The notes: generated by a model from the letters alone, not told the origin. 64,000 bases of DNA from Desulfurivibrio alkaliphilus AHT 2 (GCF_000092205.1 NC_014216.1:2175742-2239741), one strand, 5' to 3'. Numbered from the stretch's first letter, positions 38,372 to 44,772 are shown. A program made the numbers and translations.

Positions 38372-38734
38372 GGTGATGGAAATAACCGTTTCCGGCTCCA
38401 TTTGCAACGCAAAAGCATGGTCGGCGGCAAAGCTGCGGAGGTGCCTAAGGCAATTTCTACAGCCGGTGGCGGCGACTTTTTCTCGGCATATTTTTTTGTA
38501 AATTATTTACCTCGTATTTACACGGCTTGTGGTACAACCAAAGCTAGTAAGACTTCACCTTAATCTGTTAGAAGAACAGGCCTTTTGCATGGTTTTCGCC
38601 ATAGATCGAGATGTACCGATTGTTGGTTATAAGTCATACCTTCAACGGATCGCCGACAACCGGGAAGCGCCGGTCCCGCGCCGGTGCCGGCCCTACTAAA
38701 CCCTACTTTATGTTCAAAGGAGAGGAGGTGGATG
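38372..38734. other. intergenic region between mtaB and the nap-like cluster
   Basis: About 360 nt of AT-richer spacer between divergent genes, the longest gene-free stretch in the window. It holds the palindrome GTAAATTATTTAC (38498-38510), a spaced repeat CTGTT-N5-AACAG (38565-38579), and a possible plus-strand promoter, TCGAGA (38606-38611), 16 bp, TATAAG (38628-38633). None is compelling alone. The region probably contains both the mtaB promoter and the promoter and control sites of the nap-like cluster. Confidence 0.4.
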
Positions 38735-39277
38735 ATGCTTAAAAAAATGTTTTTCCCCTGCACCCTGGTGGCCATGGTGGCCATGGGGGTGGCCCTGCAG
38801 GCCCCGCCGCCGGCCCACGGCTTTGCCAACAGCGCCCCCAGTTTTCAGTGTATGAGTTGTCATCCCGGGCCCATGCAGCCCGAGATGGTCAAACTCCGCA
38901 ACCTGCCTGAGAATTACCGCCCCGGCCAGACTTACACCTTTACCCTTGAACTTGACAGCGCCCTTGAAAGCCTGGGGGAACAGCAAGGCGGTTTCGCGAT
39001 CCAGGCCTCCGCCGGTGAACTGGTGGCCAAAGACCAGGCCCACACCCAGCTCATTGATGGCATTCTGACCCATACCCTGGAAGGTTCCCATCGCCGCTCC
39101 TGGTCTTTTTCCTGGCAGGCTCCGGGGGAAGCTACTGCCTGGTGGCAGTTCTGGCAGCGGCCCGAACCCGGCCCCGATGTCAGCATCACGGTGATGGCGG
39201 TGGCCGCCAACGGTGATTATTCCGCCATCGGCGACGAGATCGGCGCAGCCGGTTTCACTTTAAGGTCCAACCGCTAA
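38735..39277 (+). CDS. exported monohaem cytochrome-like protein (Reeler-like)
   Basis: A 180-residue exported protein. Start at the second of two adjacent ATGs (38735), six bases after a perfect AGGAGG. Signal peptide at residues 1-29 (KKMFFPCTLVAMVAMGVALQ). One c-type haem motif, CMSCHPGP, at residues 39-46, then a beta-rich domain (YRPGQTYTFTLELDSALESLG; GGFAIQASAGELV) that recalls Reeler-type domains of other exported cytochromes. It stands 84 nt before the NapA-like gene on the same strand and is probably its periplasmic redox partner or a haem-bearing subunit. The function is inferred; the single haem motif and export signal are seen directly. Confidence 0.75.
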   Translation: MLKKMFFPCTLVAMVAMGVALQAPPPAHGFANSAPSFQCMSCHPGPMQPEMVKLRNLPENYRPGQTYTFTLELDSALESLGEQQGGFAIQASAGELVAKDQAHTQLIDGILTHTLEGSHRRSWSFSWQAPGEATAWWQFWQRPEPGPDVSITVMAVAANGDYSAIGDEIGAAGFTLRSNR

Positions 39278-39361
39278 AAGCAGCCCGGCTGCAACGGTAG
39301 CCGGTTGCGCCAAGCCACCACTGTTTGCTCACAACCCGCACTTTATAGAGGGAGAATAATC

Positions 39362-42300
39362 ATGCAGATCAGCAGAAGAAATTTTCTCAGGGCCAGCGCC
39401 ATTACCGCCGCCGCCACCGCCGCCGGGGTCAAGCTCGACCCCAGCCTGGCCGTGGCCGCCAACTCGGTTAAAACCTTTCCTGTCGGCCAGTGCCGCTACT
39501 GCGCCGTGGGTTGCACCATTGTTGCCGACGCCCAGGTGGACGCCGCCGGCAAGGCCAAAAAAATTATCGCCATCAAGGGCGACATGCAAAGTACAGTCAA
39601 CCGCGGGGTGCTCTGCACCAAAGGCTTTTACCTGCACCGCGCCATGGACTACCAGGGCCGCCCCAAAGGGGCGCTGGTCCGCAAAGAGTGGATCAACCCG
39701 GCCACCGGCAAGCCGGACCTGGCCAACTCGCCGCGGGTCCGCGACGGGGTTACCACCAAAGACCCCCGGGGGATTACCCCTTCCGACGTGGACCTGAAAG
39801 AAAACTTCGCCCTGGTGCCTTGGGAAGACGCCATCGAGTTTGTCGCCGACGCGGTGGAAAAGACGGTGCGGGAAAACGGCAAGCACAGCGTGGCCTACTA
39901 CGGCAGTGGCCAGTTGGGCTCGGAAGAGACCCACATCATGAACAAGGCCTTCAAGGGCGGCGGCATGCTGGCCAACAACGCCATCGAGGGTCAGCCCCGG
40001 ACCTGCATGGCCTCGGCGGTGGTGGGCTACCTTTACACCTTCGGCAAGGACGAGCCCTACGGCTCCTACGACGACCTGGATGTGCCGGACCCCGATTTCA
40101 ACAAGCACGCCGACACTTTTTTCCTGATTGGCAGCAACACCGCCGAAGCCCACCCTATCCCCTTTAACCGGATCGCGGCGGTAAAGCAGAAAAACCCGGA
40201 CCAGGTCAAGGTGATCCTGGCCGATCCGCGCAAGACCCGTTCCGGCACCATCGCCGATCTATGGCTGCCCTTTGCCACCGGCCGCGACCTGGCCCTGCTC
40301 AACTCCATGGCCTACGTCATCGCCCGCGAGATGGACAACGCCGAGTATGACGTGGAAAAGGGCACGGTGAGCGCCGACTGGAACTACCTTGATCGCAAGT
40401 TCATCGAGCGGCACGCCAACTTCGGTATCCATGAAGACGTCAAAAAGACCTGGATCAAGACCGAGTACGGCGGCATCCGCGGCACCGCCCACGACATGAG
40501 CCACACCATGGGGCTGAAGCGGGCGGTCTACCCGGACCTGAAGAAGAAATACGGCTCCGAGCGGGAGATCATGGCCGACCTCTACAAGGGTTTTGCCATG
40601 TTCCTGGAGTTTCTCTCCGATTACAACCCGGACCAGATCGCCGATATTATCTTCGAGGGTGAATCACCCCTGCTCTATGATCGCGACACCCGCACCTGGA
40701 AGAAGATCAGCGGCCCCGAAGCCATTCGGCTGGCCGCCGAGTGGTTTGCCAAGGGTTACACCACCTCGGTCTGGTGCATGGGGGTCAACCAGAAGGTACA
40801 GGGCACCTGGACCAACGCCTCGCTGCACATGCTCAACCTGATCACCGGCAAGGCGGTCAAGCCCGGCCGCCACTCCTTCAGCTTCACCGGCCAACCCAAC
40901 GCCTGCGGCGGCATCCGGGCGCCCGGCGCCCTGTGTCATGCCCTGCCCTATGGCCGGGTGGTGGCCAACCCCATCCACCGGGGCCAGGTGGAAAACCTGT
41001 GGAAAGAACGGGCCGCGGCCTACCTCAAGAAACAGGGGGTCTCCGAGTCGGAGATCAAGGCGGAAACCGACAGGATCCAGATTCACCCCATACCCGGGCC
41101 GCATACCCAGGAGATGTTCCGCCGCCTGGCCTCCGGCCAGATCAAGGTCCAGTTCGTGGCCTGTGTCAACCCCGGTCAGTCCTTGGCCTATTCCTGGCCT
41201 TATCGCAAGGCCATGGGGGCGGCGGCAAAGGGCTCTTCCTGGCCCATAACCGTTACCCTGGAATCCTTCCCAACCGCCACCACCACCATTTCCGACGTGG
41301 TGCTGGGGGCCTCAAGCTGGTATGAAAAAGAGTTCATCTTCGGCAACCTGGAGCGTCGCTACCAGGTGATCAAACAGGTGGTCGAACCCGCCGGCGACAC
41401 AGTGCCCGACCACACCATCTTCGCCTGTCTGGTGCGGCGGCTGGAGGAGAAGGGGCTGGTGCCCAAGGGTCACGTATCCCAGTTCTGGCCGGAAGAGTAC
41501 GACGGGGCGGACTGGCTCAAAAAGACCATCAGCGCCGCCAAAACCCCCGAGTGGAACCGGCAGTTCTCCAGCAACATCTGGGAGGAAATGCAGGCCCTGT
41601 CCGGCGGCACCGGCTACAACTTCACCGGTATGAACCGCGACGTACTGCTGGATCGCAACCACGGCTACCGGATCCCCTTCCCCGCCGACGTCCATACCGA
41701 CCCGGCGATGAAGGCCCGTTACGACAAGTATGAATCACGGATCCAGTATGCCTACCCCTACGATCCCCTGGTGGAACGGATTACCAATGCCTACCTGGGC
41801 AACCAGAAGGCCATCAACCCGGCTTACGGCCGCTGGTTGGAGAAAAACATCAACGCCATGAAGGCGGACCGGGAGTACCAGCGGGCCAACAACGTACCGG
41901 AAGGTTGGTTTGCCAGCTTCTATAACTCCAACGCCTTCATTCACGGCTTCCTCGACCATCCCGACGGCCACCGGGTGCCTGGTTTCGACGGGCGGGCGAT
42001 CATCTGGGCCAACCCCTGGTGGGCCTGCAAGTTCGATGGCAAGAAGTTCGCCAAATACCAGACCGTGGACGTGGTGGAGCGCAAGTTCAACGCCGCCAAG
42101 GTCGATGAGTCCAGCGTGGCCCCCTTCGATGTCACCAGCCGTTACACCGTCAAGGTGGTGGGTGACCCCGACCGTGAGGTCACGGCGCTCAAGAGTATTG
42201 TCTTCAGCCCGGCCGATATCCAGAACCACAAGGAAGAGTTCATCAAGGACGACGGCTCGCGGCTGGTGATGTACGACACCACCGGTTACGTTTACGGTGC

Positions 42301-42697
42301 CTGTACCGGCCGGGTGGTGGAACACTGGCATACCGGCAGCATGACCACCCGGGTGGCGGAGCTTTCCCGGGCGGTGCCCAAGGCTTACGTGGAACTCAAC
42401 GCCGAGCTGGCGACCAAGCTCAACATCCGCGAGGGCGACCCGGTGATCGTCGAATCCCGCCGGGGCAAAGTGGAGTTGCCGGCCAAGGTGCTGGATGTCA
42501 CACGGGCCACCGGCGGGCCGCGCCACGATTACGTATTTATCCCCTGGTTCGACGAGTTCAAGCTGGTCAACATGATCATGAACGAGCATTTTGACCCGCT
42601 GAGCTTCCAGATGGATTACAAGATGTTCTCGGTTAAACTGAGCAAGGGTACCATCCGGGAGCAGACGCAAGCCGTGCCCGGCCCCATTATCGCTTAG
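39362..42697 (+). CDS. NapA-like periplasmic molybdopterin oxidoreductase, enlarged
   Basis: A DMSO-reductase-family molybdoenzyme closest in motif pattern to NapA. Start at MQISRRNFLRASAITAAATA with GGAG upstream; SRRNFLRA is a twin-arginine signal. A [4Fe-4S] site, CRYCAVGC, is followed by NRGVLCTKGFYLHR. The NapA-type molybdenum region QPRTCMASAVVGY supplies a Cys ligand (NapA of E. coli has RHCMASAVVG). WCMGVNQKVQGTW, FTGQPNACGG and the C-terminal TGRVVEHWHTGSMTTRV are also NapA-like. At 1111 residues it is nearly 300 longer than NapA, with extra segments after the FeS site (WINPATGKPDLANSPRVRDG) and in the C-terminal third. Nitrate is the likely substrate by similarity, but the insertions leave this open. 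Confidence 0.82.
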   Translation: MQISRRNFLRASAITAAATAAGVKLDPSLAVAANSVKTFPVGQCRYCAVGCTIVADAQVDAAGKAKKIIAIKGDMQSTVNRGVLCTKGFYLHRAMDYQGRPKGALVRKEWINPATGKPDLANSPRVRDGVTTKDPRGITPSDVDLKENFALVPWEDAIEFVADAVEKTVRENGKHSVAYYGSGQLGSEETHIMNKAFKGGGMLANNAIEGQPRTCMASAVVGYLYTFGKDEPYGSYDDLDVPDPDFNKHADTFFLIGSNTAEAHPIPFNRIAAVKQKNPDQVKVILADPRKTRSGTIADLWLPFATGRDLALLNSMAYVIAREMDNAEYDVEKGTVSADWNYLDRKFIERHANFGIHEDVKKTWIKTEYGGIRGTAHDMSHTMGLKRAVYPDLKKKYGSEREIMADLYKGFAMFLEFLSDYNPDQIADIIFEGESPLLYDRDTRTWKKISGPEAIRLAAEWFAKGYTTSVWCMGVNQKVQGTWTNASLHMLNLITGKAVKPGRHSFSFTGQPNACGGIRAPGALCHALPYGRVVANPIHRGQVENLWKERAAAYLKKQGVSESEIKAETDRIQIHPIPGPHTQEMFRRLASGQIKVQFVACVNPGQSLAYSWPYRKAMGAAAKGSSWPITVTLESFPTATTTISDVVLGASSWYEKEFIFGNLERRYQVIKQVVEPAGDTVPDHTIFACLVRRLEEKGLVPKGHVSQFWPEEYDGADWLKKTISAAKTPEWNRQFSSNIWEEMQALSGGTGYNFTGMNRDVLLDRNHGYRIPFPADVHTDPAMKARYDKYESRIQYAYPYDPLVERITNAYLGNQKAINPAYGRWLEKNINAMKADREYQRANNVPEGWFASFYNSNAFIHGFLDHPDGHRVPGFDGRAIIWANPWWACKFDGKKFAKYQTVDVVERKFNAAKVDESSVAPFDVTSRYTVKVVGDPDREVTALKSIVFSPADIQNHKEEFIKDDGSRLVMYDTTGYVYGACTGRVVEHWHTGSMTTRVAELSRAVPKAYVELNAELATKLNIREGDPVIVESRRGKVELPAKVLDVTRATGGPRHDYVFIPWFDEFKLVNMIMNEHFDPLSFQMDYKMFSVKLSKGTIREQTQAVPGPIIA

Positions 42698-42746
42698 GGT
42701 AATAGCACCGCAGCACCGCATCTTGCGGCACTGCGGCGCGATTACC
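42698..42746. repeat. short GTAA palindrome, copy H (after the NapA-like gene)
   Basis: A 49-nt reduced copy starting directly at the stop codon of the NapA-like gene. Arms GGTAAT-a-GC-a-CCGCAG and CTGCGG-c-GC-g-ATTACC pair with one A-G and one A-C mismatch around CACCGCATCTTGCGGCA, which keeps the core's first hairpin. A T-rich stretch (about 42754-42779) follows, so it might also terminate or attenuate transcription before the NapG-like gene. Confidence 0.7.
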
Positions 42747-42858
42747 CCCTTCTTTGTTGGGTTGTTTTTTATTTTATTGCTCCTCCCTTGGTGGGCGGGA
42801 AAAGTTTTTTGGTTGTACTTTTCCCGCCCGCCGTTTTTGGTTGTTATGTGGTGTGATT

Positions 42859-43635
42859 ATGGGTCTTAACAGGCGAACTTTTTTGAAGGTGGTGGCGGCC
42901 GCCGGGGCGGCCGGGGTGGCCGGGAGCAGCGGGCTGTTGCTGCGGGAAGATGCCAGGCGGCGGCAAGCGGCGGCGGCCGAGCGGCACCTTAGCCCCCTTC
43001 CGGAGATTACCGAAACCGGCCTGGTGCGGCCACCCGGCGCCCTGCCGGATCGGCAGTTTCGCAGTAACTGCAGCGGCTGTGGCGCTTGCCTCAATGTCTG
43101 CCACACCATGGGCTACGACGCCATTGCCATGGCCGGACCACGCCACGGCCTCCAGGGCGCAACCCCTTATATCAAAGATATGCGGGATTTTCCCTGCACC
43201 CTGTGCATGGAATGCCCGAGTCAATGCCCCACCGGGGCCTTGCAGCCGGTGGAAAAGCCTGAAGTAAAGATGGGAATCGCCCTGATCGACCTCAAGCTCT
43301 GCTTCGGCTGGAACGGTGATGTCTGCCTTTCCTGCAGCAAGGCCTGCCCCCTGGGCGCCTCGGTGTTTGATTTCTACTACGGGGCCTGGGGTAACCAGCC
43401 CTACATCAACGAGAAATGCGTGGGTTGCGGGCTGTGTGTAAAATACTGCCCCCTGGGCGGCTCGGCGGTGAAGGTGGTGACCACGGAGGTTTATGCCGGT
43501 CTCAAGGATGAGTACCTTGCGGAGGTGGAGCAAACGCTGCACGTCTCCGGCGAGGAGCGCTACGAAATGGTTTACGGCCATAATCTGCCGGAGATAATGG
43601 CCCGGGGAAGGTTGGTGGAACGTGAATACCGCTAA
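42859..43635 (+). CDS. NapG-like ferredoxin-type protein, twin-arginine exported
   Basis: Electron-transfer protein with four predicted [4Fe-4S] clusters. Start taken at MGLNRRTFLKVVAAAGAAG (42859), which places the twin-arginine motif NRRTFLKVV at the N-terminus; the 35 upstream open codons are unlikely to be coding. Cys motifs: CSGCGACLNVC, CTLCMECPSQCP, CLSCSKACP and CVGCGLCVKYCP. In the Nap system NapG and NapH pass quinol electrons to the periplasm. It overlaps the napH-like gene by 14 nt and follows the NapA-like gene after about 160 nt holding palindrome H. Confidence 0.86.
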   Translation: MGLNRRTFLKVVAAAGAAGVAGSSGLLLREDARRRQAAAAERHLSPLPEITETGLVRPPGALPDRQFRSNCSGCGACLNVCHTMGYDAIAMAGPRHGLQGATPYIKDMRDFPCTLCMECPSQCPTGALQPVEKPEVKMGIALIDLKLCFGWNGDVCLSCSKACPLGASVFDFYYGAWGNQPYINEKCVGCGLCVKYCPLGGSAVKVVTTEVYAGLKDEYLAEVEQTLHVSGEERYEMVYGHNLPEIMARGRLVEREYR

Positions 43636-44473
43636 AGATAACGCCCCCAAAACCCCCGGCCGGGGAATCCCCTGGACTCTGCTGCGGCGCACGGTGATGC
43701 TGGCCATCCTGGCCCTGTTCATGCTCCAGTACTTCGAGATCAAGCTGCTGGTGGGCAGCCTTTCCGGCTCCACCCTGCTGGGAAGCATCAAGCTGCTGGA
43801 TGTCTTTGCCTTTTTCGAGATCTCGGCGGCGGCCAAAGGGATCAGCCTGACCCTGATCACCGCCGTGCTGCCGGTGGCCCTGCTTTACCTGGTGCTGGGC
43901 CGGGCCTTCTGCGGCTGGGTCTGCCCCATGGACCTGCTTTTTTCCCTGGTGGACAAGTTGCGCCCCGGCGACCAGCAGGGGCCGGCCAGGCTCCCCCTGC
44001 CGCCCAGAGTCGGCTACTGGCTGGCCGGCGGCCTGCTGCTGCTGGCTTTGCTCTTCAGCCTGCCGCTATTCACCAATTACCTGTCGCACCTGACCAATTT
44101 TTTCCGGACCATCGCCGGCCTGGTCTTTCTGGCCGGCGACCTGCCGGTGGAGCCGGCGATGATCGCCTGGTCGCTGCTGACCCTGCTGGCCCTGCTGGTG
44201 CTGCACTATTTCTACCCCCGGCTCTGGTGCCGGGTACTCTGCCCGGTGGGCAAGACCTACGGCCTGTTCAACCGGCTCAGCCTGCTCAAACTGCGCTTCA
44301 ACCAAGGCGATTGCGAAGGCTGCGAGTTATGCGAGCACAAATGCTACATGGGGGTTAAAATTGTCCGCAACCTGGACCGGGGCCAACTGCGCGATCCCAA
44401 CTGCATCTACTGCGGCCGCTGCATCGAGGGTTGCCGCCGGAAGGGCAAACTGATCAGGATGAGTTTAAAATAA
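43622..44473 (+). CDS. NapH-like membrane quinol dehydrogenase subunit
   Basis: Membrane protein with four hydrophobic helices and ferredoxin motifs. It starts at GTG 43622 (MNTAKDNAPKTPGRGIP), inside the end of the napG-like gene. Cytoplasmic Cys-Pro motifs CGWVCPMD and CRVLCPVGK, characteristic of NapH/CcoG-type proteins, are followed by two C-terminal [4Fe-4S] sets, CEGCELCEHKCY and CIYCGRCIEGCRRKG. The last Pro of the second set is replaced by Arg. It probably takes electrons from menaquinol and hands them to the NapG-like protein. Confidence 0.87.
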   Translation: MNTAKDNAPKTPGRGIPWTLLRRTVMLAILALFMLQYFEIKLLVGSLSGSTLLGSIKLLDVFAFFEISAAAKGISLTLITAVLPVALLYLVLGRAFCGWVCPMDLLFSLVDKLRPGDQQGPARLPLPPRVGYWLAGGLLLLALLFSLPLFTNYLSHLTNFFRTIAGLVFLAGDLPVEPAMIAWSLLTLLALLVLHYFYPRLWCRVLCPVGKTYGLFNRLSLLKLRFNQGDCEGCELCEHKCYMGVKIVRNLDRGQLRDPNCIYCGRCIEGCRRKGKLIRMSLK

Positions 44474-44514
44474 CCGGCGCTTGCGCCGGTCAATCTCTCG
44501 ACAAGGAGTAAACC

Positions 44515-44772
44515 ATGCTGGTAGCCAGCGGCTATGTGGAAGTAAACGAAGAGAGTGAGCTGGAACAGGTAAAGGCCACCCTGGAGGCGGATAATATTGA
44601 GGTAACCGAGGCCCAGGGGGTAAAAATCGTCTTCCTGATCGAGCGGGACCGGGCCGGAGAGGTCAAAGCGGCCCTGGACGGCCTGAAGGACATCCCCGGG
44701 GTGCGTACCGTTTACCTGGCCTACTACAGCCTGGAATGCAGCGACCAGGAGAAGGATGAACTGCTGGCCTAG
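44515..44772 (+). CDS. NapD-like twin-arginine signal-binding chaperone
   Basis: An 85-residue protein of ferredoxin-like fold: LVASGYVEVNEESELEQVKATLEADNIEV and FLIERDRAGEVKAALDGLKDIPGVRTVYLAYYSLE match the NapD pattern, including the closing VRTVYLAYYSLE strand. NapD binds the NapA signal peptide and holds the enzyme back from export until the cofactor is inserted. AAGGAG lies upstream of the ATG. The position at the end of the cluster supports the NapA assignment of the large enzyme. It converges with mnmA after only 3 nt. Confidence 0.83.
   Translation: MLVASGYVEVNEESELEQVKATLEADNIEVTEAQGVKIVFLIERDRAGEVKAALDGLKDIPGVRTVYLAYYSLECSDQEKDELLA

Follow-up and report, generated by a model that had tools for sequence, protein, structure and literature searches.

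A compact nap gene cluster on the + strand of the Desulfurivibrio alkaliphilus AHT2 genome (one contig of 3,097,763 bp) encodes a NapA-like enzyme of 1111 residues, and raises the question of what this enzyme reduces and which protein delivers its electrons. The cluster lies at 38,732-44,772 of a stretch of 64,000 nucleotides (NC_014216.1:2175742-2239741), the whole of which is here called the window. D. alkaliphilus, which is related to the cable bacteria, serves as a model of how sulfide oxidation is coupled to nitrate ammonification. According to the available text of Thorup et al. 2017, its napAGHD operon has no napB, and the encoded NapA is of a "novel type" similar to that of Ca. Kryptonia; this NapA was inferred to be monomeric, and its electron donor was called unknown (PMC5516251). 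The enzyme and its operon are thus already published, and what is added here is a candidate dedicated partner, its predicted fold and a conserved nitrate-to-ammonium module; the available accounts in PMC5516251 and PMC12142623 list napAGHD, and they contain neither the monohaem gene with its conservation and fold nor the linkage to octahaem genes across the clade. The answer considered likely is that the enzyme is a periplasmic nitrate reductase from a separate clade of oversized NapA proteins, fed from menaquinol through NapHG and a small monohaem protein encoded directly upstream.

The enlarged catalytic subunit and its substrate

The catalytic subunit exceeds by far the 723 residues of the mature D. 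desulfuricans NapA chain and the 828 residues of E. coli NapA. An earlier note, drawn from the sequence of the window, had put the surplus at about 300 residues and had seen the twin-arginine translocation (Tat) signal, the iron-sulfur (FeS) cysteines and the molybdenum-ligand cysteine retained; both points hold, with ~303 residues in 16 segments missing from most reference NapAs, mainly within positions 109-142, 324-449 and 813-973. The extra length is real, and neither an artefact nor chance, because the complete relatives that were fetched are likewise ~1110 residues long. That annotation or assembly artefacts made an ordinary NapA look long and NapB-less has a negligible probability and is already refuted by open frames of ~1110 residues in more than 30 independent genomes and by a genome-wide search for NapB, which found none in D. 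alkaliphilus while its E. coli control was positive. The same search, with the same control, returned NapB above the cut-off in 0 of 30 clade genomes, so that a NapB hidden elsewhere is ruled out for D. alkaliphilus and 29 other genomes.

The active site is of the Nap type. Residues kept as in genuine NapAs include the FeS cysteines 44, 47, 51 and 85, Lys87, Cys215-Met216, Gln511 and Arg519. Cys215, Gln511 and Arg519 align to Cys140, Gln346 and Arg354 of D. desulfuricans (counted along the sequence alignment), and Cys, Gln511 and Arg519 are invariant in 32 clade sequences. The general features of the NapA family are therefore all present: a Tat signal, a four-cysteine [4Fe-4S] motif, the molybdenum-ligating cysteine in (R)xCMASAV, and the active-site arginine and glutamine. 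The top match by sequence in the PDB is D. desulfuricans NapA (E 1e-114), and the Foldseek ranking of the predicted fold places NapA (4e-47) before the best formate dehydrogenase (3e-30); the model is poor near the active site, with a predicted local distance difference test (pLDDT) score below 50 at 205-232 and 509-533.

The second alternative in the earlier note, an enzyme for another oxyanion, is very improbable; selenate, arsenate, chlorate, polysulfide or the like would then be the substrate and nitrate only incidental. This reading could be argued from the distance to ordinary NapA, seen in a stem of 2.4 changes per site, and from the missed NapA equivalog cut-offs TIGR01706 and NF010055 (422 of 904 and 397 of 931 bits, respectively). 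However, other Desulfobacterota NapAs of the D. desulfuricans type also fall under the equivalog cut-off, and because of this the miss appears to mark divergence rather than another function. Moreover, the neighbours in related genomes are nitrite reductases of the ammonifying type, and expression tracks nitrate: in the available text of PMC5516251, napAGHD shows high expression when sulfide is oxidised with nitrate and not in nitrate-independent sulfur disproportionation, and in that of PMC12142623 (Sorokin 2025) the D. dismutans proteome shows a strong rise of NapA on nitrate. An identity as Arr, Ttr, Ser or Aio was likewise rejected on the basis of residues, fold ranking and neighbours. Of the two alternatives, the divergent nitrate reductase gains support from the Nap residues, the NapA-like structures, the nitrite reductases encoded alongside and the published expression, and the other oxyanion finds none; the clustering with ordinary NapA plus a NapB elsewhere, and the oxyanion-independent expression, that would have spoken differently were not found in the genome or in the available published accounts, respectively.

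The enzyme is rare, being encoded in 5 of 395 Desulfobacterota and 18 of 295 Nitrospirota genomes. A scan of genome contigs gave ~35 loci, mostly from Nitrospirota (Thermodesulfovibrionales), the remainder from Desulfobacterota, Caldimicrobium, Kryptonia, Ignavibacteriales and one bin labelled DPANN. The 32 full-length sequences all group together in a single clade on its long stem, with a Shimodaira-Hasegawa-like approximate likelihood ratio test (SH-aLRT) value of 100, apart from D. desulfuricans-type NapA (100% SH-aLRT); the outgroups are distant and on long branches, which leaves the order among NapA types unsure, and only the unity of the large clade is claimed. The Desulfurivibrio sequences are nested among those of Nitrospirota, and for this reason the tree suggests lateral acquisition of the enzyme by Desulfurivibrio. 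In the DPANN-labelled bin (L037) the enzyme is the most divergent of all (55% identity) and the monohaem gene is present; this is probably a misbinned bacterial contig. Separately, a Rhodocyclaceae contig (L048) carries nearby two divergent NapA genes of ordinary length in opposite directions, one with the motif CRYCAVGC.

The monohaem protein as a candidate electron donor

In all 34 loci with upstream DNA, a gene for a monohaem protein with a choice-of-anchor V domain lies immediately 5' of napA on the same strand. In Nitrospirota all 18 genomes that encode the enzyme have this family, against 2 of 277 without it (Fisher 7e-27), and in Desulfobacterota the counts are 5 of 5 and 5 of 385, respectively (Fisher 3e-9), both Fisher values being uncorrected for kinship. 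In G673, one of the two exceptions from Nitrospirota, the monohaem gene points off the contig end, and napA may be unassembled there. All 30 clade genomes tested carry the family, 29 of them in single copy. Chance linkage is ruled out by the 34 loci and the co-occurrence. A mirror-tree test (r 0.70, 0 of 2000 shuffles) shows co-inheritance, in which interaction is not separable from operon linkage.

The main rival explanation, an unlikely one, is that the nitrate reductase is monomeric and reduced directly by NapG, with the monohaem protein an accessory in assembly, in nitrite or NO handling, or in supplying the octahaem reductase. A monomeric NapA was what Thorup et al. inferred in the available text of PMC5516251, direct transfer from NapGH to NapA has been put forward for systems that lack NapB (PMC5317091), direct reduction by NapG being the proposal for those of the D. 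desulfuricans type, and in most loci the gene of an octahaem nitrite reductase lies directly 5' of the monohaem gene. On the other hand, the monohaem gene keeps its place beside napA where there is no octahaem gene or it has been relocated, as in Desulfurivibrio, Kryptonia and the locus L031, and because of this the partner of the monohaem protein is most likely NapA and not the nitrite reductase. The almost perfect co-occurrence with this NapA also argues against an accessory role, while the haem and the dedicated operon position suggest a redox function. The earlier note had called a route through the monohaem protein plausible, and linkage and co-occurrence now give it strong genomic support, the transfer of electrons itself being what we infer.

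The monohaem protein has a signal peptide and a single CXXCH, invariant in 35 of 35 orthologues, and its reading frame has a second ATG at 38735. Its choice-of-anchor V domain (NF041895) scores 81.5 bits, above the cut-off of 42 bits. Neither the Pfam families of cytochrome f nor any other Pfam family matched at E 0.1, and a profile search matched Spondin-1 weakly (E 0.01). The AlphaFold model, predicted without haem, has a pLDDT of 84, and the structure closest to it is the Reeler domain of F-spondin, which has no haem (Z 11.9); cytochrome f comes next (Z 9.4, root-mean-square deviation 3.3, 134 residues aligned; Foldseek E 2.6e-4). The predicted fold is thus a Reeler-like beta-sandwich that next resembles cytochrome f. 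Several cytochrome f alignments begin at residue 37 of the model and residue 18 of cytochrome f, so that C40-H44 would fall on C21-H25 of cytochrome f, and the haem motifs of the two proteins are apparently in register. The likeness is suggestive only, because cohesins score nearly as high.

Some points weigh against this route. The match to cytochrome f barely exceeds that to a non-haem cohesin (Z 9.3); for the sixth haem ligand, in cytochrome f the N-terminal amine, there are two other conserved candidates, His114 (in 34 of 35 orthologues, Gln in L040) and Met155 (33 of 35); the haem protein family is also found without this NapA; and NapG could reduce NapA directly. As a separate observation, choice-of-anchor V proteins with CXXCH occur apart from nap clusters in Desulfobacterota (L077, L080 and L083), and because such family members also have the motif, a Reeler domain with haem seems to be a more widespread and so far unstudied architecture of c-type cytochromes.

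In the proposed route, menaquinol would be oxidised at NapH and the electrons would pass to the FeS clusters of NapG and on to the small monohaem protein, which would dock on NapA and reduce its [4Fe-4S] and then its Mo-bis-molybdopterin guanine dinucleotide (Mo-bisMGD) centres; NapA would convert nitrate into nitrite, and NapD would act as the chaperone for the Tat signal. The 181-residue protein is hence named as the likely missing electron carrier to NapA, making the question of the donor testable by simple protein biochemistry.

Octahaem reductases and the gene cluster

A gene for an octahaem cytochrome c is found near at least 27 of 36 loci, usually just 5' of the monohaem gene. The encoded protein, with seven CXXCH and one CXXCK, matches Cytochrom_C552, and this motif pattern, judged from the sequence, is that of ammonifying nitrite reductases of the octahaem nitrite reductase (ONR)/TaNiR type. 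In D. alkaliphilus the homologue is unlinked to the nap cluster, being encoded outside the window at genome position 80,037-81,602 (L067); it is a single octahaem cytochrome c, likewise with 7 CXXCH and 1 CXXCK, is 49% identical to the Nitrospirota cluster protein and probably serves Desulfurivibrio as its ammonifying nitrite reductase. The nitrite released by NapA would accordingly be reduced to ammonium by an octahaem enzyme encoded elsewhere, at ~80 kb. The neighbourhood of L031 includes NrfA and an NrfH/NapC-type protein.

Taken more broadly, the system might represent a third, independently evolved way of feeding NapA, in which a dedicated monohaem Reeler/cytochrome-f-like cytochrome replaced NapB and NapM, co-evolved with the enlarged NapA and travels with the octahaem reductase as a nitrate-to-ammonium module moved from Nitrospirota into sulfur-cycling Desulfobacterota, a proposal for which the chances are judged to be even. 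If it is true, the monohaem protein would be an electron carrier of the cytochrome f kind that works outside b6f complexes. The enzyme could also serve as a marker for nitrate ammonifiers among subsurface Nitrospirota, which papers describe as napAB, while the clade genomes lack a detectable NapB.

In the window, the five genes (Table 1) are co-directional and bounded by opposite-strand genes, and the composition given in the earlier note was upheld, with open reading frames at the expected place and strand and agreement of the family scans. Pfam and NCBIfam matched the Fe4S4, molybdopterin and MGD-binding domains, the Tat signal, MauM/NapG, NapH/MauN and NapD. The matches of the NapG- and NapH-like proteins are clear, yet under the curated NCBIfam cut-offs; together with the Tat signal of NapG and the FeS motifs, they give the pair the features of a NapGH quinol dehydrogenase. 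The NapH-like frame has a GTG start and overlaps napG. The absence of NapB was confirmed and extended from the cluster to the whole genome, whereas that of NapC stands for the cluster, which also lacks NapF, and not for the genome, where a single NapC/NirT-family domain lies far away at 490 kb. No palindromic sites of the FNR/Crp type were found 5' of the cluster by a simple pattern search, which is a weak test.

Table 1. Genes of the nap cluster, with positions in the window.
Feature	Position	Strand	Characteristics
Exported monohaem c protein, 181 aa	38732..39277	+	choice-of-anchor V (Reeler-like) domain (NCBIfam), N-terminal CXXCH C40-H44
NapA-like catalytic subunit, 1111 aa	39362..42697	+	Tat signal, [4Fe-4S] Cys, Mo-ligand Cys215
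NapG-like periplasmic ferredoxin, 258 aa	42859..43635	+	twin-arginine signal, several [4Fe-4S] motifs
NapH-like membrane quinol-dehydrogenase subunit, 283 aa	43622..44473	+	two CxxxCP, two [4Fe-4S] motifs
NapD-like maturation chaperone, 85 aa	44515..44772	+	PF03927, 31 bits (cut-off 28)

Some relatives carry further genes. Directly 3' of napD, the locus L022 (13596-15937) encodes a response regulator and a sensor kinase with a Tll0287 domain, and pairs of similar size, matched by size only, follow napD in L016, L023, L029, L030, L032, L034 and L041; the pair is possibly a regulator responsive to nitrate, nitrite or NO. Neighbours of ~227 and ~550 residues had been considered as an Hcp regulator and a hybrid-cluster protein, a candidate dropped when Pfam identified them as a response regulator and a sensor kinase of the Tll0287 type. 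Between napA and napG, L029 (11460-13822) has inserted genes for a ResB-like protein and an isomerase of the PPIC type, and a two-gene insertion occupies the same place in L040 (11471-13485).

Comparison with known systems

The published napAGHD of D. alkaliphilus and D. dismutans shares with the present system the locus and operon, the lack of NapB, the nitrate-linked expression and the kinship to Kryptonia NapA, as far as the available accounts go. The canonical NapAB systems of E. coli, Rhodobacter sphaeroides and Paracoccus have in common with it the Mo-bisMGD/[4Fe-4S] core, the Nap motifs, NapG, NapH and NapD, but here there is no dihaem NapB and no NapC or NapF in the cluster, 16 insertions are added and identity is ~30%. 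Cytochrome f may resemble the monohaem protein in predicted fold, with an N-terminal CXXCH followed by a beta-sandwich, although the monohaem protein is shorter and its cluster holds no b6f partner genes. Reductases of the ONR/TaNiR type adjoin the nap cluster in most relatives but not in D. alkaliphilus.

Monomeric Nap with NapM is known from napMADGH of Thermosulfurimonas dismutans and Dissulfuribacter thermophilus (PMC5276818), and Caldithrix abyssi is also of this type (PMC5317091). Like the present cluster, NapM systems (including napCMADGH of D. desulfuricans, whose NapA is the closest solved structure) lack NapB, have a small cytochrome gene beside napA together with NapG, NapH and NapD, and often adjoin an octahaem nitrite reductase. 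They differ in that their catalytic subunit has ~750-800 residues, against ~1110 in the separate clade described here, and in that NapM is tetrahaem, while the small cytochrome of the present system is monohaem and predicted to be Reeler-like.

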